Assembly: GCA_017828975.1 (NCBI GenBank)
Contig: JAGAJN010000023.1
Coordinates: 1-64,000 of the forward strand
Reading direction: 5' to 3'
Length of the DNA: 64,000 nucleotides
Source of the DNA: Oscillospiraceae bacterium
Lineage (GTDB): Bacteria; Bacillota; Clostridia; Oscillospirales; Ruminococcaceae
The notes under the pieces were generated by a model. The model did no database searches. It was not told where the DNA came from and saw nothing but the letters and a program-made list of their open reading frames with translations. Positions 33,426-62,594 of this stretch are shown here, piece after piece. How positions within the stretch are numbered: the stretch's first letter is position 1; each line of letters opens with the position of its first letter. A program made the translations under genes and the position numbers.

Positions 33426-34868
33426 TCAGTTAGCTGCTGCTATACTTTCGTTTACAGTCTTAAGCTCCTGGTCAATGATAGTGGAGTATTCGTTCTTGAT
33501 CTGTGTCCAGTTAGAATACTCATTTTCGTTTGCGATACCCTCGTAGATGATCTCAACGATGGCATCGCCGTTAGCGGAATCGGTGTTGCTCATTACATCG
33601 CTGATACCGTAAGCATAGTCAAATACCTGAGTGAACTTATCGGGATCGTACAGGCTCATAACAAGGTCGTACTTCTCAGATGTCCAGTAGGGGTTATTTT
33701 CGAGTATTTTTGCCTTGGTGATCTCTCTGTACTGATCGTCGTAGTACTCTCTGCGGCAGCACTCAAACCAGATCTTAACAGCATCAGCCTTATCCGAGCC
33801 CTTTACCCACATATAGCTGTGAAGAGCGTTGGAAACGTAGTAAGTATCGGAATCGGGAGCCTTGGGGAAGGGAACGATCTGAATGTCGCAGTCCTCTCTT
33901 GCCTTCTGAGCATCGTTGAATGCCCAAGTACCCATACCATAAAATGCGTTTCCGTCTGCGCCGAATGCGTCTGCTTGAGAAGTCCAGCCAATTCTGATAA
34001 GCTTGTTCTTGGTCATATCTTCGAGCATTAACTCAGCCTTTTCGAGAGCTGCGCTGTTGATATTGTTGGAGAAGGTGCTTCCGTCATAGGTAACAAGGGT
34101 TTCGCCTGCGGTAAATACGAAAGCATTTGACCACCAGCCTGCGATACCGTAACGGTTTTCGGGATCATTGTCAACGAAATTCTTCATAATGGACATAAAT
34201 GCGTCCCAATCCCAGGCATCGTTCTGATAAAGCTCCAGAGGATCGTCAATACCCTCGGACTCAAACAGAGAAGCATTGTACATAAGCACCTGAGAATCGT
34301 AGAAACGATAGCCGAGAGGAGCAACATAATGCTTGCCGCCCATAACGAAATCATCGGCAACGTCCTTCATATCCTCCCACATGGGCTGGCTGAAATCTAC
34401 CAAATCGTCAATAGGCTGATACTGTCCCTTGCTGACGCCGTAGGGGAATGCCATCCATTCATACAGGAAAATGTCGGGGGAATCGCCGCTCATGATGAGG
34501 TTTGCAAGGTCGGTGAACTTTGTGCTTGAAGTAGTAGCAACATATTCGACCTTTGCTCCGTAGGTGTCCTCAAAAAGTGTCAGAGGAACGCTTCTTTCGG
34601 GGTTTGAGTTGGTGGGGTTAATGTCGGATATTCCGAGATATGTAATGGACTGACCGCTGATGTCAACGTCGCCCTTTTCTTCTTCGTCAAGACCTTCTAC
34701 TTCAATGTTATCGCCTGTCCACTCGGTCTGGGACTCGGTAGTGGTAGTTGCTTCGGTAGTGGTCGCATTTGCGGAATCGCTGCCGCTGTCACCGCCGCCG
34801 CAGGCTGTAACTGCCGCAGTCATGGTAAGTGCCATTAAAAGGGCTGCTGCTTTCTTGTAGTTTTTCAT
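33426..34868 (-). CDS. Extracellular solute-binding lipoprotein (ABC sugar type)
   Basis: A 480-aa family 1 substrate-binding protein. It has a lipoprotein signal peptide with lipobox VTAC (Cys23), then a Ser/Thr/Glu-rich spacer (~25-60) and the binding domain, with typical SPDIFLYEWMAFPYG, and DIQIVPFPKAPDSDTYYVSN. AAGGAG is 9 bases from the ATG at 34868; an ATG at 34877 abuts that site. No permease or ATPase genes are next to it, so it is an orphan. The LacI-type palindrome upstream suggests repression by a sugar regulator. Confidence 0.9.
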   Translation of the reverse strand: MKNYKKAAALLMALTMTAAVTACGGGDSGSDSANATTTEATTTTESQTEWTGDNIEVEGLDEEEKGDVDISGQSITYLGISDINPTNSNPERSVPLTLFEDTYGAKVEYVATTSSTKFTDLANLIMSGDSPDIFLYEWMAFPYGVSKGQYQPIDDLVDFSQPMWEDMKDVADDFVMGGKHYVAPLGYRFYDSQVLMYNASLFESEGIDDPLELYQNDAWDWDAFMSIMKNFVDNDPENRYGIAGWWSNAFVFTAGETLVTYDGSTFSNNINSAALEKAELMLEDMTKNKLIRIGWTSQADAFGADGNAFYGMGTWAFNDAQKAREDCDIQIVPFPKAPDSDTYYVSNALHSYMWVKGSDKADAVKIWFECCRREYYDDQYREITKAKILENNPYWTSEKYDLVMSLYDPDKFTQVFDYAYGISDVMSNTDSANGDAIVEIIYEGIANENEYSNWTQIKNEYSTIIDQELKTVNESIAAAN

Positions 34869-34929
34869 CGAAACCATCTCCTTAAATATTTTTGCACAAG
34901 CTATGGGGAAACCGCCGATAAGACTGTTG

Positions 34930-34943
34930 TGTAAACGTTTGCA
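34930..34943. promoter_or_regulatory. LacI-family operator-like palindrome
   Basis: TGTAAACGTTTGCA is a 14-bp near-perfect palindrome with the central AAACGTTT typical of LacI/GalR (including CcpA-like) operators. It lies 62 bases upstream of the solute-binding protein start. A minus-strand TATAAT sits near 35034-35039, so the operator would be downstream of that start. Confidence 0.65.
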
Positions 34944-35103
34944 TATGCACAAACTACTGTACTATCGGCTTTTCCCAATGATTTTCTCGGTTTTCACCGA
35001 AAAGAATTTATTTTGTGGATAATTTATATTAATTATAGCATGTCGTGTAAAGGTTTTCATCAATATATTATGAATTTTTGGTAACGATTACAGCTAATTT
35101 ATG

Positions 35104-35167: not shown

Positions 35168-36352
35168 TTATCCGATAGGTATCTCGTATCCGCAGAAAAT
35201 AACGGCTTCAACGCCCGAATAATCCATGATTCCCGGGAATTCAAAGTAAACATCGTTCACCTTATCGGTGGAAAAGTCCATTGTAATCTGCTCCTGCTTG
35301 TTGGAATATGCAGGCTCGGTAACTGTTGCATTAGTGTATTTTGCGTCAACAATGCTTCCGTCGGACATCTTGAATTTCAGCGGAATGCTGTCACACAGCG
35401 GCTTGTCTTCCTCGGGCAGCCACATATAAGCAAGACCCTCACCTGTAATAAACATACAAGCATTGTTGGTATAGCTTGAGGCGCAAGTGTCATTTTTGCC
35501 TTCAACAACGCAGTCCTCCAACATTCTTATGCCTATTCCCACGGTTTTCGGGGATATGGTTATGCGTGAGATCTCCATCTCAGCCACAGCACCGAACATT
35601 TCCTCTGTCGTCCAGCTGATATGAGCAGGCTCAAGCTCTATGGTTTTCGTCTGAATAGCTTCGCCTACGGTGAAATCGGCGGTGTATTCGCCCTTGATGA
35701 TCCTGTCATAATCCAGCCCTGTATCGCCCATGGGAACAATATCCGTCAGCGTAACGGTGAGCTGCTGTTCTGTGGGATCCTCTTCAAATTTATCCATATT
35801 TATCCGCATGAACGCCTTGCCGTCCTCCCGAACGTCCATAGGGCTCCAGCTAAAGCCGTTCAGACCTTCTCCGCCTTCAATGGTAATATTTACGCAGTTA
35901 TATATCTGTCCCGCTATGGGTTCATCAAAGGTAAATTCAACAGTCAGCTCAATGCCCGTGCCATAGTTGAGAACGCTGGTTATCTTTGCGCTTATGCCTT
36001 CCGCAAAGGGCTTTTGACCGTCCTCTTCGGTGATTTGCAGGGCAGTTCCCAGCAGGTCAACATCGGTGCTGTCATTTCCGTAGACCTCGTAATATTCGTT
36101 GACCGACTTCCTGTTAATGCCAAGAATATCGTCAATGACCTCTCTTGCTTCGGGAGATACGGCATATGCGGTCCCGCTGACCGCAAGAAAAGCTCCCACG
36201 CAAGCCGCAGCAACGGCGGCGATTTTTGATTTTTTCATTTTTGCGTCCTTTCCGTCCGACTCAGCCGCAAGCTTTTCTCTGACGGCATTAAGCATTTTTT
36301 CCTTCTGCCTGTCATCGGGCAAAATTTCTGCCAGCGCATTTTTTAGCTTCAT
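35168..36352 (-). CDS. Membrane-anchored anti-sigma-like protein (DUF4179-like)
   Basis: A 394-aa protein with a cytosolic N-terminus of about 45 residues (LKNALAEILPDDRQKEKMLNAV), a single membrane segment (KIAAVAAACVGAFLAVSGTAYAV, ~47-68) and a large beta-rich extracellular part. This layout, directly after an ECF sigma gene, fits a DUF4179-type regulator that holds the sigma factor. The ATG at 36352 is 9 bases from GGAGGA, which overlaps the sigma gene's stop codon region, so the two are coupled. The signal sensed is unknown. Confidence 0.78.
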   Translation of the reverse strand: MKLKNALAEILPDDRQKEKMLNAVREKLAAESDGKDAKMKKSKIAAVAAACVGAFLAVSGTAYAVSPEAREVIDDILGINRKSVNEYYEVYGNDSTDVDLLGTALQITEEDGQKPFAEGISAKITSVLNYGTGIELTVEFTFDEPIAGQIYNCVNITIEGGEGLNGFSWSPMDVREDGKAFMRINMDKFEEDPTEQQLTVTLTDIVPMGDTGLDYDRIIKGEYTADFTVGEAIQTKTIELEPAHISWTTEEMFGAVAEMEISRITISPKTVGIGIRMLEDCVVEGKNDTCASSYTNNACMFITGEGLAYMWLPEEDKPLCDSIPLKFKMSDGSIVDAKYTNATVTEPAYSNKQEQITMDFSTDKVNDVYFEFPGIMDYSGVEAVIFCGYEIPIG

Positions 36353-36357
36353 CAGAC

Positions 36358-36813
36358 TCAATCCTCCAGTATTGTTTTCAGCTTTTTTCTGCCCCTGTCA
36401 AGACGGCTGCCTGCGGTGGATTTGGCGATTTTCAGCATTTTTGCTATCTCCTCGCAGGTGTAGCCCTCGTAGTAGTGCAGATAAATGACGGTGCGGTATT
36501 TCTCGGGAAGTCCCCGCAGCAGCATAAGCGTTTCATCGACCTCAATATTTCCCGTAAGCATATCATCACTGAGCGGCTCAAAGCGGTATCTCGGACTTTT
36601 CAGCCTGTCACGGCAGATATTTTTCGCCGCAACTATAAGCCACGCCTTTTCATGCTCGGCGTTTTCAAAAACCGTCCCCGACCTCATAAGCCGCACAAAG
36701 GTATCGGAAACGGCGTCCTCGGTGTCCGCCTTGTTTTTCAGATAGATGCTGCATACACGATAGACAGTTTCAACGTTTCTGTCGTATATCTCGGCAAGCT
36801 GTTGCTGCTGCAT
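36358..36813 (-). CDS. ECF-type RNA polymerase sigma factor
   Basis: A 151-aa sigma-70 family protein with only regions 2 and 4. Region 2 (residues ~8-75) includes YLKNKADTEDAVSDTFVRLM and AWLIVAAKNICRDRLKSPR; region 4 (~95-148) holds LPEKYRTVIYLHYYEGYTCEEIA and a helix-turn-helix KSTAGSRLDRGRKKLK. AGGGGGC upstream is a modest ribosome site. It is followed by its presumed anti-sigma gene. No promoter with a repeated ECF-type -35 was recognised nearby, so autoregulation is unproven. Confidence 0.9.
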   Translation of the reverse strand: MQQQQLAEIYDRNVETVYRVCSIYLKNKADTEDAVSDTFVRLMRSGTVFENAEHEKAWLIVAAKNICRDRLKSPRYRFEPLSDDMLTGNIEVDETLMLLRGLPEKYRTVIYLHYYEGYTCEEIAKMLKIAKSTAGSRLDRGRKKLKTILED

Positions 36814-37705: not shown

Positions 37706-37734
37706 TTGCAATTTCCGAAATAATATGCTACAAT
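37706..37734 (+). promoter_or_regulatory. Promoter of the cellulase gene
   Basis: TTGCAA (37706-37711), 17-base spacer, TACAAT (37729-37734); a TATAAT overlaps at 37734-37739. It lies 30 bases upstream of the gene start. Confidence 0.7.
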
Positions 37735-37763
37735 ATAATTACATTATGAACGGAAGTGATCTT

Positions 37764-39851
37764 ATGCAAAAAAAGACCAAAAGCCTTACCTCAAGGATTA
37801 TCGCATTTTTAGCCGCCGTGACCGTTTCTGCGGGCGCACTCTGCGGCTGTTCGGGAGATAAGCCGTCTGCGGAAGCCACCGACAAGCCCGAAACCTCGGC
37901 AGCCGATACCACCGCAGCCGAAACGGAAGCGGAAACTGTCACAACTCTCCCCGACGTTTTCGGTGAGGACTACGACCCTTTTGCCGAGGACTACGACCCA
38001 TACGGAAACGGCACCAAAAAGCCGTCGTCCAAGCCCGCAGGCACAATTTCCACGGACAGCGGGGAAACGGAGGTATCTGAACCCATGACGGAAAAACCGA
38101 CAGAAACCGAAAAGCCCCAGACCACCACAGCCGAAAAGCCGCAGGAAACGCAGTCCACAACACAAAAGCCCGCTGAAACGACTGCTGCGGAAAAACCCGC
38201 TCAGCAGACTTCAAGCAAGGACGTTTACCTAGAGATCAACAACTCAAACGGCTGGGAAAACGGCTCGGACAAGTTTTCCCAGATAGACCTGAACGTTGTA
38301 AACCACAGCGACAAGACCATCAGCAACTGGAAGGCGGTGATTCCCGTGGCGGCAAATGCACAGATAGAGCAGAACTGGAACTGCGAGCTGTCCATCTCGG
38401 GCGGAAAGCTGACTGCCACACCCGTTGAGCATAACAAAAATGTTGAGCCGGGGCAGAGCGGCACCTGCGGATTTATCCTGAAAAATGCGGGAACTCCCGA
38501 TGCGTCCAAATCCTCGGTGACTTATACTGCGGGAGCATCTCAGCAGAATTGGGGCGGCGGGTCAAACGGCGGAAATTCGGGCAGTAATCAGGGTGTAGGC
38601 AACAACAGCACACCTATTGTTGCCGCAAAGGACGTTCCCAAGCCCACCACCGATGACTGGCTGTTTGTCAAGGGCAACAAGATTGTTGACAGCAGCGGAA
38701 AGGAAGTCTGGCTGACAGGCTGCAACTGGTTCGGCTACAACACAGGCACCAACACCTTTGACGGACTTTGGGCGTGCGACCTGAACACATCTCTTGCTTC
38801 TATCGCAGACCACGGCTTCAATCTGCTGAGAGTGCCCATTTCCACCGAGCTTATCAAGCAATGGTCCAACGGGGAATATCCCACGGCTAATTTCAATCAG
38901 GCGACAAACTCCTATCTTGTGGGAATGAACAGCCTTGAAATTTTCGACTATGTTATCGGTCAGTGCCGTGCAAACGGTATCAAGATAATGATAGACATTC
39001 ACTGCGCAAAGACCGATTCTATGGGACATATGAAGAATATGTGGTACGAGGGCAGCATTACCGAGGACGATTACATAAAAACTCTCGGCTGGATAGCTAA
39101 ACGTTACGCAAATGATGATACTATCATCGCCTACGACCTGGAAAACGAGCCTCACGGCAAGCCCTATGAGTCGGAGAAGGCTATCTGGAACGGCAGCACT
39201 TCCTCCAATAACTGGAAATACATCGCAGAAAAAGCGGCTAAATCGGTTCTTTCAAACAATCCCAACGTGCTTGTTATGGTAGAGGGCATTGAGATATATC
39301 CCAAGGATATTAAGTCAAACGGTAACTTTACGTCCACCAACGACGGCGACTACTATTTCAACTGGTGGGGCGGAAATCTCCGAGGCGTCAAGGATTATCC
39401 TGTTGATCTGGGCAAATATCAGAACAAGCTGGTTTACTCTCCCCACGATTACGGTCCCGCAGTTTACAAGCAGCCCTGGTTTAAGGACGGCTACAATTTC
39501 GACAGCCTTTACAAGGACTGCTGGTACGACAACTGGTTCTACATTCAGAAGGAGGGCATCGCTCCGCTGCTTATCGGCGAATGGGGCGGCTTTATGACTG
39601 AGCCTAATCTCACCTGGATGACGCATCTCCGCCGTCTTATCAAGGAAAACCGCATCAATCACACCTTCTGGTGCTTCAACGCCAATTCGGGTGACACGGG
39701 CGGACTTGTCAAGGACGATTTCGTTACCTGGGACACAGAGAAATACAATTTTGTAAAGGAAGTTCTTTGGCAGCAGGGTGGCAAATTCGTCGGACTTGAC
39801 CATCAGATACCCCTTGGCAAAAACGGTATTACTCTTTCGGACGCAAACTGA
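37764..39851 (+). CDS. CBM2-GH5 endoglucanase lipoprotein
   Basis: A 695-aa surface cellulase. Order: lipoprotein-like signal peptide (lipobox LCGC near residue 29), a Thr/Pro/Glu-rich linker (~30-148), a CBM2-type cellulose-binding module (~150-258, WENG, NNSNGW and [11 protein letters not shown]), a Gly/Asn linker, then the GH5 domain (~305-680). Catalytic residues are visible: acid/base Glu462 in DLENEPHG and nucleophile Glu606 in LIGEWGG. There is no dockerin, so it is anchored by lipid rather than bound to a cellulosome. GGAAG is spaced for the ATG at 37764. Single-gene unit with promoter and terminator. Confidence 0.93.
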
Positions 39852-52451: not shown

Positions 52452-52484
52452 AAAAAGCCGCACCCCCGAAAACGGGAGTGCGGC
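52450..52484 (-). terminator. Terminator of the 789-aa repeat protein gene
   Basis: GCCGCACCCCCG (52457-52468) pairs with CGGGAGTGCGGC (52473-52484). On the minus strand it ends in seven T. On the plus strand there is no T-tract, so it serves the minus-strand gene first. Confidence 0.88.
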
Positions 52485-52517: not shown

Positions 52518-54887
52518 TCAGCCCTGATCCTTCATAATGATAAGAGCGTAGATACCGGAAGTATCAACATCAAAGGTAGCATAGCCATTGCTGTCAATGG
52601 TAGCATAATCTGTTCTGATAAGGTAGTTGTTAGCGGGGTCGTATCTGAACAGCTTGGCAGTCTTGCCGGCATTTCTGGTCTTGAATTTAACTGTCATCTG
52701 ACCTGTGAAGCCGAACTTGGTAATGGTAGGATTGCCGATGGTGATCTCAGCATAGCTCTGAGCGAGGGCATCTGCAGCCTTCTTCAGACCAACGGGAATA
52801 TCGGTGGTGTTGTACTTGATATAGATGTTGGTGTTGTCAACGGCATTGTTGGTAATATCATTGCCGTTTATCTTCCATACCGCACCGTTGGACATTACCA
52901 GCTCAACATTTTTGTTAGTACCCTTGAAGCTGTCGAGGAATTTCTTGGACAGAGTGTTTGTCTTGTTCATGTTGATCTTGGTAGTGGTGCCGAGAGAAGC
53001 GTTCTTGACCTGATTGATAAGTGCGCTCCAGCCCTTTACTCTGGACGAATTGTACAGATAGGGGTCATCGGAGTTGACCTTTTCATTCAGAGAAGCGTAA
53101 TATTCATCGCAGTTTGCTGCGCCTGACTTAGGATAGTATCTGCCGTTATCGTCATCGCAGTCCTTGGTAAAATAGTAGTGACCGTTTACATAAACGATAC
53201 CGTTGTTGTATGCGACATAGCTTGTGTAGTTGTGGGAATAGCCCTTTGCATCTGCCTTGGGGGAATATCTCTTTGTAACGTAGTCATATGTGCAGTCGGT
53301 CTTGTTGTAATATTTGCCGTTGACATAGACCATGTAGTCATATTCCTTGTATTCGCCGTACTGAGCATCGTAGTTGACAGCACCCTTCTTGGGGTAATAT
53401 CTGCCGTGGTCGTAATCGCAGTCCTCTATCTTGTAATAGTGGCTGTTTACGTAAACAACGTTCTTGTCAATGAGCTTATAGTTGGTGTAAAGGTTGTTGT
53501 AGCCTGTTGCTGTGTTGTAGGGGACATACCTTCCGTCGGACTTATAGCACTCGGTCAGGTCGTAATACAGACCGTTGATGTAAACCATTGTGTCATAAAC
53601 CTTGTAGGAGGAGTAAGCAGCGTCAACATTGGAAGCGCCCGACTTGGGGTAATATCTGCCGTTGTCGTTTACGCAGTCGGACTTGGTGTAATAGTGACCG
53701 TTTACATAAACTGTGTTAAGGTCAACATCGCGGTAGCTGGAGTAATAGTTAGCGTAACCCACAGCGTTCTTGTAGGGGACATATCTCTTTGTGCTTGTGT
53801 CAAGATAGCAGTCGCTCTTGTCGTAATATTTGCCGCCGATGAAATACATCTGGTCCAGCTCTTTGTAGTTGGAGTAAGCATATGTATCATCATACTTGCT
53901 AACGTCCTTGGGGTAGTATCTGCCGTTGTCGAGAACGCAGTCGCTGATGAGATAGTAGTGACCGTTTACATAAACAACGCCGTCGCTGTACTCCTTGTAG
54001 CTGGAGTAATAGTGGTCATAATACTTTGCGCCCTCTCTGGGGATATATCTGCCGTTCTTGTCCAGAACGCAGTCTGTCTTGTCGTAGTATTTGCCGTTAT
54101 AGCGTATAATGCCGTTTACATACTCAAGATAGTCGCTGCCGTCCTGAGCGGTGCCGTCAAGGCTGGAGGGGTAATATCTTCCGTTATCGAAAATGCAGTC
54201 AGACTTATTGTAGTAGTTTCCGTTTACATAAACCTGATTTCCGTTATCCTGATAGGAAGAATAGTAATGGTTATACCAGGTGCTGTACTGTGTGGGGACA
54301 TACTTGCCGTTTACGTAATTGCACTCTTTCTTAACGTAATACTTTCCGTCAATGTAAACGGTGTACTCGTCATATTCCTTGTATGAAACTGCGGTGGAAG
54401 CACCCGACTTGGGATAGTATCTGCCGTGGTCCTCAACGCAGTCTGTCTTGTTGTAGATAAGACCGTTTACGGTCACGGTGCCGTTGCCGTTGTCCTTATA
54501 GGAAATATAATAGTAGTCGTATCCGACAGCATTTGTGTAGGGAACATATCTGTTTGTCTTGGTATCGAAGTAGCAGTTGTACATATCGTAGTACTTTCCT
54601 TCGATGCGTACGACCTTATTATCAAACTCCTTGTAGGTAGTGTCCACGGGCTTTGTGGTGTCATTGGTATCGCCCTCGTAATATGGAGTGGCGTCGTTGT
54701 AGGGGATATATACTCCGTTTGCAGTCAGGAAGCATTCGGACTTAAGATAGTAAGCATTTCTGCTTGCGACATAGACGTAGTTGGGGTTATTGGAATATGT
54801 AGCAGCAGATGCTCCTATGCAGCCAAAGGTCTGAGCTGCCAGAACTGCGGACAGAACAGCCGCTGCGGCTCTTTTGTTGAATTTCAT
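52518..54887 (-). CDS. Secreted Tyr-rich protein with 13 Cys-containing repeats
   Basis: A 789-aa exported protein of a type I do not recognise. Signal peptide residues 1-~29 (ending GASAA). Residues ~37-600 hold about 13 repeats of 40-45 residues with consensus VYVNGHYYxKSDC, then DNGRYYPKSGA or KRYVPYxNAVGY, and a YSSYKEYD link. Each repeat has one Cys after an acidic or polar residue. The two sub-types tend to alternate, giving a ~85-residue super-repeat. Residues ~620-789 form a distinct domain shared with the 444-aa neighbour (VMSNGAVW, KKFLDSFKG). AAGGAG supports the ATG. Likely a surface or matrix protein. Confidence 0.8.
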   Translation of the reverse strand: MKFNKRAAAAVLSAVLAAQTFGCIGASAATYSNNPNYVYVASRNAYYLKSECFLTANGVYIPYNDATPYYEGDTNDTTKPVDTTYKEFDNKVVRIEGKYYDMYNCYFDTKTNRYVPYTNAVGYDYYYISYKDNGNGTVTVNGLIYNKTDCVEDHGRYYPKSGASTAVSYKEYDEYTVYIDGKYYVKKECNYVNGKYVPTQYSTWYNHYYSSYQDNGNQVYVNGNYYNKSDCIFDNGRYYPSSLDGTAQDGSDYLEYVNGIIRYNGKYYDKTDCVLDKNGRYIPREGAKYYDHYYSSYKEYSDGVVYVNGHYYLISDCVLDNGRYYPKDVSKYDDTYAYSNYKELDQMYFIGGKYYDKSDCYLDTSTKRYVPYKNAVGYANYYSSYRDVDLNTVYVNGHYYTKSDCVNDNGRYYPKSGASNVDAAYSSYKVYDTMVYINGLYYDLTECYKSDGRYVPYNTATGYNNLYTNYKLIDKNVVYVNSHYYKIEDCDYDHGRYYPKKGAVNYDAQYGEYKEYDYMVYVNGKYYNKTDCTYDYVTKRYSPKADAKGYSHNYTSYVAYNNGIVYVNGHYYFTKDCDDDNGRYYPKSGAANCDEYYASLNEKVNSDDPYLYNSSRVKGWSALINQVKNASLGTTTKINMNKTNTLSKKFLDSFKGTNKNVELVMSNGAVWKINGNDITNNAVDNTNIYIKYNTTDIPVGLKKAADALAQSYAEITIGNPTITKFGFTGQMTVKFKTRNAGKTAKLFRYDPANNYLIRTDYATIDSNGYATFDVDTSGIYALIIMKDQG
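53095..54780 (-). repeat. Tandem degenerate coding repeats (~125-135 bp units)
   Basis: The DNA encoding the 13 protein repeats. The units are diverged at DNA level but recurring plus-strand words such as ccgtttacataaac, gtaatatctgccgtt and gcagtc mark nearly every unit. The divergence argues for old duplication, with conservation held at the protein level. Confidence 0.75.
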
Positions 54888-54960
54888 AAAATTATCTCCT
54901 TTTCTGTTTATTCGGTAAAGGTCTGAAGCAGATCGGAAATTGAATTCCTTTTATATGCCT

Positions 54961-54988
54961 ATTATAACACATTTTTTATGTAAAGCAA
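54961..54988 (-). promoter_or_regulatory. Promoter of the 789-aa repeat protein gene
   Basis: On the minus strand: TTGCTT (54988-54983), 16-base spacer, TATAAT (54966-54961). The arrangement matches the promoter of the paralogue at 56585-56612. Confidence 0.6.
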
Positions 54989-55114
54989 TTAAAATTCGGC
55001 AAAATTTAGTTACAAATCAGTTACAAGTTACCATAGTCAACTCAGGGGCTCGGACCATAAAACCCGAACCCCCTGTTTTATCTGAAATTGTCTTTGAAAT
55101 ATCGGAAAACCCCG

Positions 55115-56449
55115 TTACTTGGAAATGGTGATTGCATAGGTGCCTGTATTTACCAGATCGAATGCAGCGGAACCGTCTGCACCGATAACTGCTGTGTCTA
55201 CAAGAATGAGGACATTTCTTCCCGCATCATATCTGTATATCTTAGCGACCTTGCCTGCCTTGTTCTTGTTGAACTTAGCTGTAAGAGAGCCATTGAAGCC
55301 CATGTAGCCTGCATCTGTTCCAACTGTGATCTCGCAGTAGCTGCCCTGACCGATGCTTGCCTTCTGCTTGAGGATAGCAGGGATCTTGTTGGTGTTGTAC
55401 TTAACGCTTACATTTACCGCTCTTACGCTGTCTTTATCAATATCTCTGCCGTTGAAGCTCCAAACAGCACCGTTGGACATAACCAGCTGGAGGTTGATGT
55501 TCTTGCCCTGAACAGCATTCAGGAACTTCTTGGAGATAACGGAGGTCTTGTTCATATCGATCTTGACTGTTGCGCCCTTCTTGGAAGCATAAATGGTGTT
55601 CATGATGGCGTTCCAGCCCTTTTTCTTGCTGTTGCCGTAGATAAAGGGATCGGATTCGGAAACAGAGCTTGAAGTGTTCGATGTGAAATAGTATCCGTTG
55701 TAGTAACGGATAGAAGAAAGGTAGTCAGAGTAAGAATTATAAACATTTCCGTTATAATAGTAGGCACCTGTGGGGAGATAAGTCACATAGTTTGCGGTTG
55801 ATATGGGGTGATAGCGTCCGTCACTGTATGTGCAGTCCGACTTTCTGTAAACGTAGCCATTAATGATAACGTAGCCGTTGCCCTCAACGTAATCTTTGTA
55901 GACATATCCGTTATAGTATTGACCTGTAACGCCTGCCTTGGGGTAATATCTCTTGGTAGTGGTGTCGTAGTTGCAGTCGTCCTTGTCGTAGTAGTATCCG
56001 CCGATAATAACGTAATCGGAGTATTCTGCGTAATAGTTGCCGTAGTAATAGCCGTTATAATAATAGTAGTAAGGGTTTGATGTATTTGTTGTGGCGATAG
56101 GTGCAGCATCTCTCGAATAGTATCTGCCGTTGTAGTAAACGCAGTCCTTCATTCTGTATACATTACCCTCGATATAAACGGTTCCGTCGGAATATTCTCT
56201 GTAAATATCTGTGAAATTTACAGTGCCCTTGGGATAGTAATCGCCGTTTACCAGATAGCAGTCCTTGGTATAGAACCAGCCGCCTACGGTGTAAACAAGG
56301 TCGCCGTTTACGCCGGGAAGAGTATTGGCGTCGATAGGACGTGCGGTAGCAGCAGAAGCGGTCACGCCTGCAAACATAGCTGAAGCCATCATAACAGAAA
56401 GTGCAGCCGCACCTGCTGCCTTGGCAGTTTTCTTGATCTTAAAGGTCAT
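55115..56449 (-). CDS. Secreted Tyr-rich repeat protein, shorter paralogue
   Basis: A 444-aa exported protein paralogous to its downstream neighbour. Signal peptide to about residue 35 (MFAGVTASAATA). About four repeats follow with the same plan (YTVGGWFYTKDC, YIEGNVYRMKDC, IIGGYYYDKDDC, IINGYVYRKSDC), each with one Cys, plus a Tyr-rich fifth unit without Cys. The C-terminal ~165 residues match the neighbour's C-terminal domain, with VMSNGAVWSFNGRDI and KKFLNAVQGKN. AGGGAG is 9 bases from the ATG at 56449; the ATG at 56458 abuts it. Own promoter upstream. Confidence 0.8.
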   Translation of the reverse strand: MTFKIKKTAKAAGAAALSVMMASAMFAGVTASAATARPIDANTLPGVNGDLVYTVGGWFYTKDCYLVNGDYYPKGTVNFTDIYREYSDGTVYIEGNVYRMKDCVYYNGRYYSRDAAPIATTNTSNPYYYYYNGYYYGNYYAEYSDYVIIGGYYYDKDDCNYDTTTKRYYPKAGVTGQYYNGYVYKDYVEGNGYVIINGYVYRKSDCTYSDGRYHPISTANYVTYLPTGAYYYNGNVYNSYSDYLSSIRYYNGYYFTSNTSSSVSESDPFIYGNSKKKGWNAIMNTIYASKKGATVKIDMNKTSVISKKFLNAVQGKNINLQLVMSNGAVWSFNGRDIDKDSVRAVNVSVKYNTNKIPAILKQKASIGQGSYCEITVGTDAGYMGFNGSLTAKFNKNKAGKVAKIYRYDAGRNVLILVDTAVIGADGSAAFDLVNTGTYAITISK

Positions 56450-56584
56450 TTTAAGCATCTCCCTTTTTTATAAAGTAATATATTCCGAAAGTTCAAACCC
56501 GCAAGCGGATTCTTCCTCTTGAACCGACGGAGAATATGATATTTGATATGCAGATACTTTTGCATCAGGCATACCCATAAATCT

Positions 56585-56612
56585 ATTATAACATATTTTT
56601 CAAGATATGCAA
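56585..56612 (-). promoter_or_regulatory. Promoter of the 444-aa repeat protein gene
   Basis: On the minus strand: TTGCAT (56612-56607), 16-base spacer, TATAAT (56590-56585), about 135 bases upstream of the start, leaving a longish leader. Confidence 0.6.
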
Positions 56613-56977
56613 TAGATTTTCCGCCAAAAAAAATTACAACTTTATTACGATTTGGAAATAAACGCTGTAAGAAATTCGGTTGATCTATATTTTGTTATAA
56701 AATATGAGAAATATTTCCTCGCAAAGCTTCGTTTTGATGCGAAGAGAAATTGTTCCCTTAATGCCTAAAGAAAAATGATACCCGATTTTGTAAAAAAGCT
56801 ACAAACCTGCCGAAAATTACTGTGCAAATTCCCAAAAATAAGTTACAGAACGGTAAAAATGAAAACTTTCGGCGGGAAATGTTGTATTATAGACAGCAAG
56901 AGAAAATCGGTAATTCCTTGCATGAAGCATTTCGGAAAATTAACACAAAAGAATAATCTGTTGAGAGGAGTTTTAAT
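56613..56977. other. Intergenic region between divergent secreted-protein genes
   Basis: AT-rich with no supported gene. It should contain the plus-strand promoter for the 711-aa gene; a TATTAT near 56883-56888 is a possible -10 but no clear -35 accompanies it. A short hairpin CTTCG...CGAAG lies near 56730-56747. Confidence 0.4.
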
Positions 56978-59113
56978 ATGAAATTCAAGAAAAGAAAAAT
57001 GCTTGCGGCAATTGCTGCCTGCGCACTTATGGCGGGGACGATACCCGTATGTATCAATGTTTACGGCACTTCCCCTGCGGCAATTTCGGCGGAAAGCGAG
57101 GACGCAGAGATGAAAAGACTTCTTACCCTGGTAAAATCCAGAGTGACTGTTCCCGAGGAGCTGAGCGAGTTCAGCTTTTCCAAGGAGGGCAAGGGAGCGG
57201 CAATTTACTATTCCTTCCATTGGAACACCAAGGACGGCGTTTCTCCCGTAAAGGCCCTTGATATTTCCGCTTCGGGAGAGTCTATCATCAGCTATAACTA
57301 TTATTCCTCCGACCGCAAATACAGCGGTGAGCCTGCCTTTGGTAAAATGACCGAAGCACAGCTGACGGAGAAAGCAGCGGCATTCATTAAAATGCTGAAC
57401 CCCAACTTCGGAGATGCCTTTAAGCTGGACAATTTCAACGCAACACTCAGAGGAAGAAACGCATCCTTCAGCATCGTAAGAACGGAGCAGGGCAGTAACG
57501 CATTCTCAAACAGCGGCTCTATCGCCCTGAACAAGGACACGGGGGAGATCGAAAGCTTCAATATGACCTGGTGGGACAAGGCGGCGTTCAGCGACATTTC
57601 AAAGGCAGGTTCCCTTGACGATATGAAGAAATTCTACAAGGCGGGGACAACTCCCGAGCTTGTTTACACCGTAAATTATAACGAGGATAAAAAGGCTTAT
57701 CTTCCCGCACTTGTTTATATTATTAAAAGCGATAAGTATTATGACCTGCTGACAGGCAGCGAGTCGGCGTATGCTGCTGAGTTGAAGGCAAATAACGACA
57801 AGAACAACGTAATTTCCGAGAATTACGGCGGTGTGTATATCACTGAATGTGATGATGCTGTTGTTCTGGAAAGTCCCACAGTAGCCAAAGGAGAGGGCGG
57901 CGTTACCTTCACTCCCGAGGAGCTGAAGGCCATGGAGGAGGAAAACGGTCTTATCTCCAAGAAAAAGGCTGAGGAGATCGTCAGGGCGGACAAGCTTCTG
58001 CCTGTGGCAAACGCTCCCGAGGGCGTTACTATGACCATGAGAAATGCCCGTCTTGTCAAAAATGACGAGCGCAGCCTGAGAAGCGGCTACACATGGATAA
58101 TGTCCTTTAGCGGCAAATATTCTGACGGCAATGAGGTTTCCGCATATGTAAATCTTGACGCAAAAACAGGCGAGATACTTAGCCTTTCCTCATGGGACGG
58201 CAATTTCAAGCCCGTGACCGACACAAAGGCAGCCGCCGCAGCTGCTGACACAGCATTCAAGCATTTAATGGGCGACAAGGCTGCCGAATACAAGCTTCAC
58301 GACACCAACGAGTGGGGCAATGAGAGGAATAAGCGTATTACCTACACCTATGCGAGATATGTAAACGGCGTAAGAGTGACCACTGATGACGTTTCCATAA
58401 ATGTTGACGGAAAGGGTATTACCGAGTTTTCTTCCGCTTACCACAATGTGGAGTTCCCCTCCGCAGAGGCAGTCGGCGCAGAAAAGGCGTTTGACGGACT
58501 GTTTGCCGCAAATGAGTTCAACAGCGGCTTTATGGGCTTCCGCACTATGGACGGCAAGGCGCACACCTATCCCGTTTTCTATCTCACGGGTAACTATTAC
58601 ATCAATGCTAAAACAGGCGTTCAGTGCCGCTATGACGGTACCGCACTTGACGTAAAGGAAGCAGGCTATACCGACATTTCCGACCATTGGTGCAAGAAAT
58701 ATGCGGAAAAGCTGCTGGAATATAACATTTACATAAATTCCGACGACGGAAAGCTTCTGCCCAACAATGCCATTTCCCGTAAGGAGCTGGAAGAGCTTAT
58801 TTCAAGGGTCTACGGCGATGTTATCCCTTACAAAATGGCGGCTGATTCCGAAGCGGCTTCAAAGGCACCCGTTACCTACCGTGACGCAGTAAAAATGTAT
58901 GTGGAATATGCAGGCGGGGACGATTTTGCAAAGTATACGGGCATCTACAAATCGCCCTTCAAGGACGTTCCCGAAAGTGATGCAGACGTCGGATATTTCG
59001 CTCTTGCATACGGCGCCGGCTTCGCAGTTCCCAACAAGGACGGCGGCATAACCCCCGATTCCCTCGTTTCCAGAGGAATGATCCTTTATATGCTGTATAA
59101 TTCTCTGAATTGA
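56978..59113 (+). CDS. Secreted protein with YcdB/PepSY-like repeats and C-terminal SLH-like region
   Basis: A 711-aa exported protein. Signal peptide 1-~38. The body has two alternating YcdB/YcdC-like units (~45-240 and ~330-560) with motifs such as SGSIALNKDTGEIESFNMTW and NLDAKTGEILSLSSW, the PepSY-like pattern of secreted peptidase-inhibitor proteins. The end (~565-711) resembles S-layer homology modules: YTDISDHWCKKYAEKLLEYNI, ISRKELEELISRVYG and VSRGMILYMLYNSL. SLH modules would hold it to the cell wall. GAGAGGAG at 56963-56970 supports the ATG. Function unknown. Confidence 0.78.
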   Translation: MKFKKRKMLAAIAACALMAGTIPVCINVYGTSPAAISAESEDAEMKRLLTLVKSRVTVPEELSEFSFSKEGKGAAIYYSFHWNTKDGVSPVKALDISASGESIISYNYYSSDRKYSGEPAFGKMTEAQLTEKAAAFIKMLNPNFGDAFKLDNFNATLRGRNASFSIVRTEQGSNAFSNSGSIALNKDTGEIESFNMTWWDKAAFSDISKAGSLDDMKKFYKAGTTPELVYTVNYNEDKKAYLPALVYIIKSDKYYDLLTGSESAYAAELKANNDKNNVISENYGGVYITECDDAVVLESPTVAKGEGGVTFTPEELKAMEEENGLISKKKAEEIVRADKLLPVANAPEGVTMTMRNARLVKNDERSLRSGYTWIMSFSGKYSDGNEVSAYVNLDAKTGEILSLSSWDGNFKPVTDTKAAAAAADTAFKHLMGDKAAEYKLHDTNEWGNERNKRITYTYARYVNGVRVTTDDVSINVDGKGITEFSSAYHNVEFPSAEAVGAEKAFDGLFAANEFNSGFMGFRTMDGKAHTYPVFYLTGNYYINAKTGVQCRYDGTALDVKEAGYTDISDHWCKKYAEKLLEYNIYINSDDGKLLPNNAISRKELEELISRVYGDVIPYKMAADSEAASKAPVTYRDAVKMYVEYAGGDDFAKYTGIYKSPFKDVPESDADVGYFALAYGAGFAVPNKDGGITPDSLVSRGMILYMLYNSLN

Positions 59114-59131: not shown

Positions 59132-59172
59132 GCGGCTCAGTCATCAAATTTCTGATGGCTGAGCCGCTTTTT
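59132..59172 (+). terminator. Terminator after the YcdB/SLH-like gene
   Basis: GCGGCTCAG-TCATCA (59132-59146) pairs with TGATG-G-CTGAGCCGC (59152-59167), followed by TTTTT. It reaches the stop codon of the convergent kinase gene. Confidence 0.88.
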
Positions 59173-60377
59173 CACTTTGATATGACGGGAAGCTTCACGG
59201 TAAATTTGTTTATACCGTCCGAGCTTTCCGCCTTTATTTTTCCGTTATGCTCCCTGACAATATTTTCCGCAATGGACAGTCCTAAACCGTAGCTGTGGTT
59301 CATGCTCCTTGCCTTATCCGCACGGTAAAAGCGTTTGAAGATGTTTTTCAGGTCCTCCTTGGACAGCGCTTCGCCGTGGTTTTCCACCGACAGCAGGGCG
59401 TGTGTCCCGTGACGTTCAAGGGTAAGCTTAACAGCCGTGTTCGGGTGGGAATATTTCATTGCATTGTCCAGAAGAATGTCCACTGTTCGCAGAAGACAGT
59501 CAAAGTCGCCCTTGACAAAAATCCCGTCCTCCGCCCGGCATTGCAGTTCAAGCCCTTTCTCAAAATAAAGCGGTTCAAAGGGCAGTACGGCGTCCGTTAC
59601 AAGACCGCTCAGGTCAACGGGCAAAAAGGTCATTTTCACCGAACCGTTGTCTATCCGTGCCAGCTCCAGAAGATTTTCCGTAAGCCCCCGCATCTGCTTG
59701 GACATTGTAAGAATGCTTTTGGAAAACTGCCGCCGCTTTTCCTCGCTGAAGCTGTCCTCACGGAGCATTTCGGCATTTGTCATAATGACGGTCAGGGGAG
59801 TTTTCAGCTCGTGAGATGCGTCCGCAACGAACTGCCGCTGCTCGTTCCACGCTCTTTCTGCGGGCTTTACCACCCAGTTTGACAGAAGCAGGCTGATTAT
59901 GAGAAACACCCCGAAGCTTATCCCGCCCATCAGGGCACAGTTTTTCAGCAGGCTTTTCATGACCACCTTTTCCGAGGATATATCCGAAAATGCTGTCAGC
60001 CGATAGTTACGGGAATTTACCTGCAAAAATCGCAGTTCATATCGTTCGAGAGTACCCGATTCTTTGCCTGAAACTGCGGAATTCAGTTCAGCAAGAAATG
60101 TCTTATCCGTAATATCGTAGCGGCTGAAGCCCTCGGCGGACAGCGTACCGTCGGCAGCTTCCACCATCAGAAAGCAGGGCAGCCGCATATCCTCCCGACC
60201 GCCTTCGGGGGGCTTTGGACGAAGCATCATAGAAGTTGTCGTTCGCATAGCTTGAATGCTCTGGTTTTCCAGCTCGTTTTTGGTGAATATCAGCACTGTC
60301 CCGAAAATTATCCCCAGCATTATGGTGACTATAAGCATATTCACAAACACAAATTTTATTTTCAGACGCTTTATCAT
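59172..60377 (-). CDS. Sensor histidine kinase
   Basis: A 401-aa membrane sensor kinase. Two membrane segments (~10-31 and ~148-170) flank an extracellular sensor of about 115 residues that lacks a domain I recognise. Then comes HisKA with the phosphorylated His in VADASHELKTPL (near residue 188), followed by the ATPase domain with DNAMKYSHPN (N box), FKRFYRADKARS and YGLGLSIAENI (G boxes). GGAGGT at the end of the response-regulator gene serves the ATG at 60377, so the pair is coupled. Signal unknown; the divergent VTC-CotH operon is the likely target. Confidence 0.93.
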   Translation of the reverse strand: MIKRLKIKFVFVNMLIVTIMLGIIFGTVLIFTKNELENQSIQAMRTTTSMMLRPKPPEGGREDMRLPCFLMVEAADGTLSAEGFSRYDITDKTFLAELNSAVSGKESGTLERYELRFLQVNSRNYRLTAFSDISSEKVVMKSLLKNCALMGGISFGVFLIISLLLSNWVVKPAERAWNEQRQFVADASHELKTPLTVIMTNAEMLREDSFSEEKRRQFSKSILTMSKQMRGLTENLLELARIDNGSVKMTFLPVDLSGLVTDAVLPFEPLYFEKGLELQCRAEDGIFVKGDFDCLLRTVDILLDNAMKYSHPNTAVKLTLERHGTHALLSVENHGEALSKEDLKNIFKRFYRADKARSMNHSYGLGLSIAENIVREHNGKIKAESSDGINKFTVKLPVISK

Positions 60378-60378
60378 C

Positions 60379-61047
60379 TCAATCGACCTCCAGATGATAG
60401 CCCAGCCGCCTGATTGCTTCAATGCGGACATTTGAACCTATCCCCGACAGCTTTTTCCGCAGAAATCCCACATAGACCTCAACGTGATTTTCAACGGCGT
60501 TTGAGTCATAGCCCCACACCTTGGTAAGCAGCGTTTCCTTGGAGATATTGTTCTCGCCCGACTGCATAAGAAAGCGCATAACGTCAAATTCACGGGAGGA
60601 CAGGCGCACGCTTTTTTCGCCGCAGATAAGCTTTCCCGATTCCAGGTCAAGGGAAGTGTTTCCGTAAACAAGCTCGTTCACCTGCGAACCCTGACGGCGG
60701 AGAAGTGCGTTCACGCAGGCAAGCAGCTCCCGTGAATCAAAGGGCTTTGTGAGATAATAATCCGCACCCGAGTTAAGCCCCTCTATCCTGTCCTCAATGG
60801 CGGAGCGGGCGGTCAGCATAAGTATAGGCGTTGAACAGTGCTTGCGGCGAATGTCCTTTGCAACCTGAAAACCGTTTTTCACCGGCATCATAACGTCTAA
60901 AATGAGCAGGTCGTAAATGCCCGGCTCGGCGTATTCCTCGCCGCTTTCGCCGTCAAATACGGTTTCCGCTTCAAAGCCCTTTGACTCCAGCAGGTCCTTT
61001 ATGGAATTTGCAAGGAGGATCTCGTCCTCTATTATAAGTATTTTCAT
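60379..61047 (-). CDS. OmpR-family response regulator
   Basis: A 222-aa DNA-binding response regulator. The receiver domain has the acidic pair IIEDE, the phosphorylated Asp51 in LLILDVMMP, Thr in MLTARS and Lys in YLTKPFDSREL. The winged-helix output domain (~125-220) shows LSSREFDVMRFLM, VWGYDSNAVENHVEVYVGFLRKKL and IRRLGYHLE. GGGAGG precedes the ATG. It is transcribed divergently from the VTC-domain gene, across an intergenic region with a 9-bp inverted repeat that may be its site. Confidence 0.95.
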   Translation of the reverse strand: MKILIIEDEILLANSIKDLLESKGFEAETVFDGESGEEYAEPGIYDLLILDVMMPVKNGFQVAKDIRRKHCSTPILMLTARSAIEDRIEGLNSGADYYLTKPFDSRELLACVNALLRRQGSQVNELVYGNTSLDLESGKLICGEKSVRLSSREFDVMRFLMQSGENNISKETLLTKVWGYDSNAVENHVEVYVGFLRKKLSGIGSNVRIEAIRRLGYHLEVD

Positions 61048-61179: not shown

Positions 61180-61238
61180 TCAATTCAGCAGGGTATTGTA
61201 TAATCTAAGTGAAATCAAAATTAAACGGAGGTAAAATG

Positions 61239-61907
61239 ATGAAATTCCGTCATGAATGGAAACACGAGATAAATTTCTCGGATATGTTGGTTCTGCGGCA
61301 TCGTCTGAAAGCTGTTGCCCGCTGCGACCCCAATGCACCCGACGGCAAGTATTTTATCCGCAGCCTGTATTTCGACACGCCCAATGATAAGGCTCTGATG
61401 GAAAAAATAAACGGCATCAGCCGACGTGAGAAATTCAGGATAAGGTATTATAACGGCGACACTTCCTTTATCCGTCTGGAGAAAAAATCCAAGCTGGACG
61501 GGCTTTGCGGAAAACAGGGGGCGTCCCTGACAGCCGATGAGGTGCAGTCAATTATGGTTGGTGACATCGGATTTATGAAAACTTCCGAAAATGAGCTTGT
61601 CCGTGAGCTTTACTCGAAGATGAACTCACAGCAGCTTCGCCCGAAAACCATTGTGGATTACGACAGGGAAGCGTTTGTCTATCCTGCGGGAAATGTGCGG
61701 GTGACTATGGACTGTAACATTCGCACGGGGCTGTATTCCACGGATTTTCTGGATATGGACTGCGTTACCGTCCCCGTGACGGGCGCTGTTATCCTGGAAG
61801 TGAAATGGGACGAGTTTCTTCCGTCGGCAATACGGGACGCCGTTCAGTTAGAGGGCAGGCACACCTCGTCATTTTCAAAATACGCAGCCTGCAGAATTTA
61901 CGATTAA
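61239..61907 (+). CDS. VTC-domain (polyphosphate polymerase-like) protein
   Basis: A 222-aa soluble protein of the VTC/CYTH tunnel-fold group. Visible are FRHEWKHEIN at the start, YFIRSLYFDTPNDKAL, KFRIRYYNG, IRLEKKSKLDGLCGK, IVDYDREAFVY and a final ILEVKWDEFLP, giving the alternating basic and acidic residues that line the tunnel. Eukaryotic Vtc4 makes polyphosphate; bacterial members next to DUF4956 and CotH have no shown activity that I know of. CGGAGGT at 61226-61232 fits the ATG at 61239 better than 61236. Confidence 0.88.
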   Translation: MKFRHEWKHEINFSDMLVLRHRLKAVARCDPNAPDGKYFIRSLYFDTPNDKALMEKINGISRREKFRIRYYNGDTSFIRLEKKSKLDGLCGKQGASLTADEVQSIMVGDIGFMKTSENELVRELYSKMNSQQLRPKTIVDYDREAFVYPAGNVRVTMDCNIRTGLYSTDFLDMDCVTVPVTGAVILEVKWDEFLPSAIRDAVQLEGRHTSSFSKYAACRIYD

Positions 61908-61922
61908 AGGAGATTTTTTACT

Positions 61923-62594
61923 ATGACTTTCAACGATATTTTTAAATCAAGCTTTCTGGAAAATGTTGCAAGCGTGACCGTTCTCGATATGGCTATCGCT
62001 CTTGTTCTCTCATTCGGCATAGGAATGTTCATTTTTATGGTCTACAAAAAGACCTTTTCGGGCGTGATGTACTCGTCAAGCTTTGGCGTTACTCTGGTGG
62101 CACTGACTATGATAACCACCGTTGTTATTCTGGCGGTTACGAGCAATGTGGTGCTTTCGCTCGGTATGGTCGGTGCGCTGTCTATCGTACGTTTCCGAAC
62201 GGCTATCAAGGAACCTCTGGATATTGCGTTTCTTTTCTGGTCTATCGCTTCGGGAATTGTCCTCGCTGCGGGACTGATTCCGTTGGCTGTTATAGGAAGC
62301 GTTGTTATCGGTGTTATCCTGCTGATTTTCGTAAACAGAAAATCTCACAGCACACCCTACATTGCCGTTATCCGCTGTGAAAATCACGATGCCGAAACCA
62401 AGGCAAAGGCGCATCTCGAAAAGAATTCCGAACGCTGCATCGTCAAGAGCAAGACCGCTCAGAAGGGCGAAATTGAGCTTAATATGGAGCTTCGTCTTAA
62501 AGAGGACAACACCGATTTCATCAACGAAATTGCCGATATGGACGGCGTAACAAGCGCAGTTCTCGTTAGCTATAACGGCGATTATATGGGATAG
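61923..62594 (+). CDS. DUF4956 membrane protein
   Basis: A 223-aa protein with four or five membrane segments in residues ~20-145 (including ALVLSFGIGMFIFMVY and LAAGLIPLAVIGSVVIGVILL), the conserved loop GMVGALSIVRFRTAIKEPLD, and a soluble C-terminal ACT-like domain (~150-223). It follows the VTC gene by 15 bases with an AAAGGAG site. VTC, DUF4956 and CotH genes recur together in Firmicutes, which suggests one membrane machine, but its job is not known. Confidence 0.88.
   Translation: MTFNDIFKSSFLENVASVTVLDMAIALVLSFGIGMFIFMVYKKTFSGVMYSSSFGVTLVALTMITTVVILAVTSNVVLSLGMVGALSIVRFRTAIKEPLDIAFLFWSIASGIVLAAGLIPLAVIGSVVIGVILLIFVNRKSHSTPYIAVIRCENHDAETKAKAHLEKNSERCIVKSKTAQKGEIELNMELRLKEDNTDFINEIADMDGVTSAVLVSYNGDYMG

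Follow-up and report, generated by a model that had tools for sequence, protein, structure and literature searches.

Two adjacent genes for exported tyrosine-rich repeat proteins with periodic cysteines, an unnamed C-terminal domain and a WalR-type promoter box in an Oscillospiraceae bacterium

The window analysed in this work, the 64,000 nucleotides at positions 1 to 64,000 of contig JAGAJN010000023.1 of an Oscillospiraceae bacterium (GCA_017828975.1), carries on the reverse strand two adjacent genes, here named A and B, for paralogous exported proteins composed of a signal peptide, an array of tyrosine-rich repeats with one cysteine per unit and a shared C-terminal domain. The two genes are real and belong to no known family in the searches made; the kind of protein, an exported aromatic-repeat surface protein, is a familiar one. 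The reading which we favour, tentatively and at a little under an even chance, is that both proteins are exported to the envelope or a matrix and expressed under envelope control, and that their hairpins would present tyrosines to a polymer and would be stapled by the cysteines. We regard as the more useful result two features that extend beyond this genus, an unnamed C-terminal domain and a promoter signature. The features of the locus are listed below.

52457..52484, minus strand: strong terminator-like hairpin 3' of gene A (12 pairs, 10 of them G-C, and T7)
52518..54887, minus strand: gene A, a 789 amino acid exported repeat protein
52530..53069, minus strand: C-terminal domain of A, about 180 amino acids, containing NGAVWKINGNDI (profile match, A being a row of the profile)
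53088..54770, minus strand: repeat array of A, 13 units of about 42 amino acids, Cys52 to Cys577, with an extra Cys593
54801..54887, minus strand: predicted signal peptide of A, approximately residues 1-29, type I, with an ASA-A site, assigned by eye
54961..55025, minus strand: predicted promoter of A, box at 55009-55025 (TGTAACTGATTTGTAAC), 42 bases, TATAAT at 54961-54966
55115..56449, minus strand: gene B, a 444 amino acid exported paralogue of A
55118..55654, minus strand: C-terminal domain of B, about 179 amino acids, with Cys375 (profile match)
55778..56311, minus strand: repeat array of B, four cysteine units followed by a degenerate stretch lacking cysteine
56585..56649, minus strand: predicted promoter of B, box at 56633-56649 (CGTAATAAAGTTGTAAT), 42 bases, TATAAT at 56585-56590

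The first-pass annotation, which had been made from the sequence alone, described two adjacent paralogues of 789 and 444 amino acids with signal peptides on both, and this description is correct. The longest frame of B runs from 55115 to 56458 on the minus strand (447 amino acids), but its second ATG, at 56449, is placed 9 nucleotides past a GGGAG, and the 444 amino acid start is preferred because of this proper distance. B, too, starts with a type I signal peptide, likewise assigned by eye. Cys23 of A falls within the signal peptide and has no proper lipobox, so that a lipoprotein was rejected. Spore coat proteins are produced in the mother-cell cytoplasm without signal peptides, and a spore-coat assignment was likewise rejected, since both A and B carry them. 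By eye, neither protein has an LPXTG motif or a C-terminal membrane span, both ending in the C-terminal domain, and the Pfam scan gave no SLH match in either. Tyrosine makes up 16.2% of A and 13.6% of B, compared to 1.9-8.3% in the 16 further exported-like proteins of 324 kb sampled from the genome, window included, where exported-like and cytosolic-like proteins were sorted by a heuristic with some doubtful members. Tryptophan occurs three times in each protein.

The repeat unit has the consensus VYxNGxYYxKxDC-x(2-4)-NGRYYPK. In A its cysteines are found at residues 52, 105, 150, 189, 231, 273, 317, 360, 405, 447, 490, 532 and 577, spaced by 39-45 residues except for a first gap of 53, and Cys593 is additional to these 13. 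In B, using the numbering of the 447 amino acid frame, the unit cysteines are residues 67, 106, 162 and 209, and Cys375 is the single cysteine of the C-terminal domain. Thirteen and about four to five repeats had been reported initially; the 13 of A stand, each with its cysteine, and for B the count is four cysteine units and the degenerate stretch. The cysteine and one tyrosine are invariant across 16 aligned units, being 12 of the 13 of A (the degenerate first unit is omitted) and the four of B. The repeats exceed chance: a 38-column profile, itself built from these units, matches 16 stretches of the genome with E-values from 8e-19 to 7e-11. Conservation of the cysteine in spite of divergence at the DNA level, also noted initially, is evident from three results: Tandem Repeats Finder calls no array in the DNA of the repeats, units 2 to 13 of A share on average 61% of bases (42-82%) in an ungapped block of 15 codons, and within this block the cysteine is retained in 12 of 12 units. 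The array of A follows an alternating two-unit pattern. Units separated by an even number of steps have 65% of bases identical, those separated by an odd number 58%, so that the array probably expanded through double repeats of about 85 amino acids. In 12 of the 13 units of A the residue before the cysteine is an aspartate or glutamate. A CxxCH haem motif was not seen, and a histidine adjoins the YY pair in just four of the twelve compared units of A.

Searches against known families were uninformative for both proteins, as the first-pass annotation, which recognised no family, had led one to expect. Neither A nor B matches a Pfam or NCBIfam family at E<=1 (DUF7454 reaches only E 1.3 for B), and PHROGs gave nothing of weight, the best E-value being 0.011 for A. 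In the PDB there was no match for A at E<=1, and the best for the unit profile had E 0.58. No match was found to phages for the array of A, nor to plasmids or viral contigs for A. Profile searches with the repeat and, separately, with the C-terminal domain had been proposed and were run; neither part is explained by a known family. Choline-binding and WG repeats had been named as families whose match would remove A and B from the unknown, and neither was detected by profile in A or B. For the WG repeat model PF14903 a search of the whole genome was also empty, as were all 14 control genomes.

The pair is present in both sampled genomes of the genus. In the second one (G001), A and B lie in the same order and beside the same neighbouring genes; the orthologue of A is 95% identical, and for B 410 of 447 aligned positions are identical. 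Rates of nonsynonymous (dN) and synonymous (dS) substitution are 0.0275 and 0.341 for A (dN/dS about 0.08) and 0.0485 and 0.306 for B (dN/dS about 0.16), and both genes are under purifying selection. All cysteine codons, 15 of 15 in A and 5 of 5 in B, encode cysteine in G001 as well. In a sample of 390 further genomes of the class, from which G001 is absent, the unit profile gave no match at E<=0.001. Among the 297 sampled genomes of the family ten pass at E<=0.01, namely the two of the genus and eight with one short stretch each. The one of these eight that was examined, L045, is a real case, with a lone cysteine unit scoring 22.1 bits, compared to at most 6.7 in 1000 shuffles; its protein is exported, and the unit is located upstream of true choline-binding repeats at the end of the protein. 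Judged from sequence profiles, the cysteine array was found only in this genus, apart from the lone unit in L045.

The C-terminal domain has a much wider distribution. Between A and B it is 46% identical over query residues 600-789; the common domain of about 165 residues reported initially is indeed shared, with the length revised to about 177 residues. A profile (A1) made from seven C-terminal domains scores A and B at E about 1e-73, both being rows of the profile, and finds matches at E<=0.001 in 99 of the 297 genomes of the family, the own genome included. Summed from the table there are 239 matches in the 297 genomes, and as in the genome count some are partial. Independently of the profile, tblastn with A reaches loci L064-L075 with E-values from 5e-29 to 1e-15. 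In the loci read the domain is combined, by eye, with leucine-rich, immunoglobulin-like, glycosidase-like, transglutaminase-like, dockerin-like and membrane-anchored parts, and in relatives it is repeatedly joined to tyrosine-rich hairpin arrays. It is not itself a universal anchor, because in some proteins a membrane span or a dockerin-like end follows behind it. The domain is common and unnamed, and it also terminates tyrosine-rich exported proteins without cysteine arrays. No Pfam or NCBIfam model scored over its cut-off, with scattered weak matches only, and no relative was found in the PDB at E<0.09. Two candidates among the weak matches were considered and are not claimed: PPC, with matches from 5 of the 33 members of the alignments (best E 4e-4; 14.8 bits against a cut-off of 25.9 in the single case shown), and CBM_X2, matched by 2 of 33 (best E 0.007). 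The 33 members include repeat fragments, and the domain tables for whole alignments give E-values only.

Tyrosine-rich exported proteins with this domain were found in Ruminococcus and other Oscillospiraceae at L022-L024, L028, L032, L064-L068, L073 and L074; L070-L072 and L075 contain, as far as read, the same proteins as L024, L023, L032 and L028. The arrays of the relatives are of the YYSSYTGKYYSTY type with few or no cysteines. The part N-terminal to the domain has 0-3 cysteines in each of 14 domain proteins printed and a tyrosine content of 6-28%, two or three of the 14 not being tyrosine-rich. Homology of the cysteine units to these cysteine-less units seemed likely by eye, found no support in the profile comparisons and is not claimed here; the nearest to an excess is L023, whose best stretch scores 9.7 bits with the unit profile, compared to 2.6 in 50 shuffles. 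What A and B certainly have in common with the relatives is the architecture and the C-terminal domain. Another genus also has a tandem pair of neighbouring genes with the domain and tyrosine-rich repeats (L005 and L009, on G022:C108).

Both genes are preceded by a box resembling the WalR consensus TGTWAH-N5-TGTWAH as quoted in PMC9210968, exact in A and with one mismatch in B, and in both it stands 42 bases from a TATAAT; the promoter of A has an extended -10, TGTTATAAT. The two boxes are conserved in G001, that of A with one spacer base changed. By itself the box is of modest significance, as 0.16 exact matches are expected in the window and at least one occurs in 15 of 100 shuffles, and a sigma-70 promoter scan gave 10 sites compared to 10.8 in shuffles, without any excess. 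The composite TGTWAH-N5-TGTWAH-N(41-44)-TATAAT is more informative, with 93 sites in 63 of the 297 genomes compared to 14 for the backwards pattern (counts summed from the genome table). For ten of these 93 sites a check showed that the next gene downstream encodes the C-terminal domain (in G000, G001, G003, G022, G157, G217, G232, G237, G275 and G292), where about 0.04 of 93 would be expected by chance on a rough estimate from 239 domain matches among some 600,000 genes. The composite is likewise directly upstream of the domain gene in the five named loci L064-L068. Thirteen of the 15 cases so checked are from outside the genus, and the 15 are non-independent, several being close relatives. 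In L030 the gene of a relative is preceded by the exact 17-mer box of B, there with a gap of 43 bases.

Within the window, a scan of 33 chosen gene starts found the composite at two or fewer mismatches only before A and B. Sixteen relatives were scanned as well, of which eight have the exact composite and one has it at one mismatch. The other genes behind the composite largely encode exported proteins. Fifty box sites were read for the gene they precede: 39 have a readable downstream gene, 24 of the 39 being exported-looking by a heuristic and 11 of these 24 lipoprotein-like, in a set which includes duplicates and four sites chosen for the domain gene and which has no background from the same heuristic. 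One false call, seen twice, concerned an enzyme judged by eye to be MurA-like, whose gene is nevertheless a wall gene. The genome has a second composite promoter, L138 (G000:C16), before a lipoprotein-like gene, and it is conserved in the sister genome as L139 (G001:C10).

These data are brought together in the reading stated at the outset. A and B would be non-catalytic proteins of the envelope or the extracellular matrix, in which each unit of 42 residues probably forms two short beta-hairpins with Asn-Gly turns (VYVNG-xYYxK and DC...NGRYYPK). The hairpins may stack into an elongated rod whose rows of tyrosines would face a polymer, most likely a glycan such as cell wall, capsule, plant fibre or mucus. 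In choline- and glucan-binding repeats, according to PMC4929436, hairpins stack as a solenoid and aromatic residues face the ligand; A and B may act in a similar mode without membership of that family, and by this analogy carbohydrate binding is plausible. The C-terminal domain, a module which exported proteins of this bacterial family have in common, would perhaps serve docking or assembly. Both genes would be turned on through a response-regulator promoter of the WalR type, i.e. with growth or stress of the cell envelope, the regulator being putatively WalR. The single cysteine of each unit would most likely staple neighbouring units by disulfides, and we consider such staples more likely than free thiols. 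The surface or matrix location proposed in the first-pass annotation gains indirect support from the signal peptides, the lack of any other domain, the purifying selection and a WalR-type promoter shared with genes for exported proteins, and its interpretation is upheld in part.

Several observations weigh against this reading. Seven of the 16 relatives lack the composite at one or fewer mismatches, one of the seven having the box without TATAAT and another being covered over 244 bases only, and the putative assignment to WalR is drawn from the recognition sequence alone. With the unit profile, the repeats of the relatives score among or below the shuffles for nearly all targets, and hhalign of the cysteine units against the cysteine-less ones gave a probability of 27% over 15 columns. 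Neither A nor B matches a choline-binding or WG model in Pfam at E<=1. Finally, no match to VKOR, DsbD_TM (DsbD/CcdA) or DSBA was found in the genome, which is 94.7% complete, while these models matched in 3, 10 and 8 of 14 control genomes, respectively. This last result argues against enzymatic disulfides of the known kind and leads to the first of the alternatives, namely that the cysteines stay reduced in the anoxic gut and form a free-thiol array for metal binding, for persulfide or redox buffering or for thiol-disulfide exchange with host mucin. The single cysteine per unit, the acidic residue before it in nearly all units of A and its conservation while neighbouring residues vary are in line with such an array. 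Other exported-like proteins of the genome sample, however, contain 1.40% cysteine (16 proteins) compared to 1.97% in 133 cytosolic-like ones, so that avoidance of cysteine by exported proteins in this organism is rejected; extracellular cysteines seem to be general in this organism, and what is special about the array is its periodicity alone. Since thiols are not generally avoided, some route of oxidation may exist. The cysteine counts of mature A (14) and of the array of B (4) are even, which is weakly compatible with pairing (one in two by chance for each), and apart from the cysteine no potential metal ligand recurs in every unit. On balance we regard the free-thiol array as unlikely. One of the 16 exported-like proteins, a GH5 cellulase with a CBM2 encoded in the window (37725-39851, plus strand), has ten cysteines in its exported part.

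Intermolecular cross-links, dityrosine as well as disulfide, would turn A and B into an insoluble coat, for which the high tyrosine content of both proteins and the regular cysteines would be suitable and in which the C-terminal domain may aid assembly. Dityrosine needs an oxidant or a peroxidase, improbable in an obligate anaerobe, and no peroxidase or other cross-linking family was found in the subset of 22 other window proteins scanned; we give such a covalent matrix little credence. Very nearly as improbable is that the units are diverged choline- or glucan-binding (CW_binding) repeats anchoring the proteins to the wall. Their aromatic hairpin motif with an NG turn resembles the consensus with DNGSWYYLN published in PMC4929436, and in L045 a cysteine unit and true choline-binding repeats occur in one protein. 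The three models PF01473, PF19085 and PF19127, however, all match in L045 and none of them matches in A or B at E<=1, each protein has just three tryptophans, and the period is 42 with a cysteine instead of about 20. The alternative that concerns the promoter is the strongest of those considered, possible though in our judgement somewhat doubtful: the box could be read by another OmpR-type regulator, for example a PhoP-like one or the two-component system encoded at 59172-61047, in which case phosphate or some other local signal, instead of wall growth, would control A and B. The two-component genes of the window are 2.7 kb from B, and in L070 and L075 a response regulator and a kinase are directly upstream of the tyrosine-rich family gene, the regulator of L075 being identical to that of the window at 107 of 222 residues. 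Being closely similar, L070 and L075 count as one case, an identity of 48% is ordinary for such regulators, and the box fits the WalR consensus of PMC9210968.

The implications exceed the two genes. The exported domain, which is matched in one third of the genomes sampled from a major gut family, has no Pfam or NCBIfam model over the cut-off in our searches, and the promoter signature links a number of the domain genes to envelope control. Domain and signature together allow many uncharacterised surface proteins of gut bacteria to be tested as a single group. The cysteine array is a clean case for the handling of extracellular cysteine by an anaerobe whose genome gave no match to DsbA, VKOR or CcdA. 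A bolder possibility, to which we assign a lower probability than to any of the alternatives above, is that an undescribed class of envelope proteins is common to the Ruminococcus-type bacteria, tyrosine-rich hairpin rods with an uncatalogued end domain and a WalR-type promoter, and that one genus, lacking the usual disulfide enzymes, turned them into an array of reduced thiols every 42 residues for exchange with mucin or metal binding.

The surroundings of the pair include further genes of interest. Divergent from B, and conserved beside it in the other genome of the genus, is a gene (56978-59113, plus strand) for an exported protein with YcdB/YcdC repeats (DUF4901) and SLH domains, in which a PepSY match is just below the cut-off. 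It is followed by the genes for a two-component kinase and an OmpR-type regulator (59172-61047, minus strand) and by a VTC-domain gene and then a DUF4956 gene (61209-62594, plus strand). On the other side, two long frames (33426-34952 and 35168-36361, minus strand) have no Pfam match at E<=0.001 and look exported by a crude signal-peptide heuristic. A gene resembling the large subunit of a phage terminase (45483-46826, minus strand) lies near ordinary chromosomal genes, is found in the sister genome as well and is possibly a phage remnant. Elsewhere in the genome four sortase matches (L085-L088) are clustered in less than 5 kb at G000:C10:41280-45901.

A and B can be compared with several known systems. 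The WG beta repeats (PF14903) have, by eye, a unit of about 40 residues with similar glycine, tyrosine and proline positions; A and B differ by the lack of a profile match and of a WG or KWG motif. With the choline- and glucan-binding repeats (CW_binding_1, PF01473; Choline_bind_2/3) they share the exported aromatic repeats with Asn-Gly turns, the hairpin in A and B being a prediction, and one cysteine unit is found together with such repeats in the protein of L045; in distinction to them, A and B give no profile match, have a longer unit with a fixed cysteine and lack a catalytic partner domain. The WalR (YycF) regulon of Firmicutes is similar in its TGTWAH-N5-TGTWAH box and in having envelope and exported proteins as targets. 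A family of the type of A and B was not found in the Ruminococcus literature searched, which covered in part the topics of surface, disulfide, tandem-repeat and tyrosine-rich proteins. Closest are the tyrosine-rich relatives with the C-terminal domain, which differ by repeats of the YYSSYTGKYYSTYxxA type and by 0-3 cysteines in the N-terminal part, and which resemble A and B in the signal peptide, in the tyrosine-rich repeats with NG or TG turns and in the shared domain as the last part of the protein; many of them also have the composite promoter.

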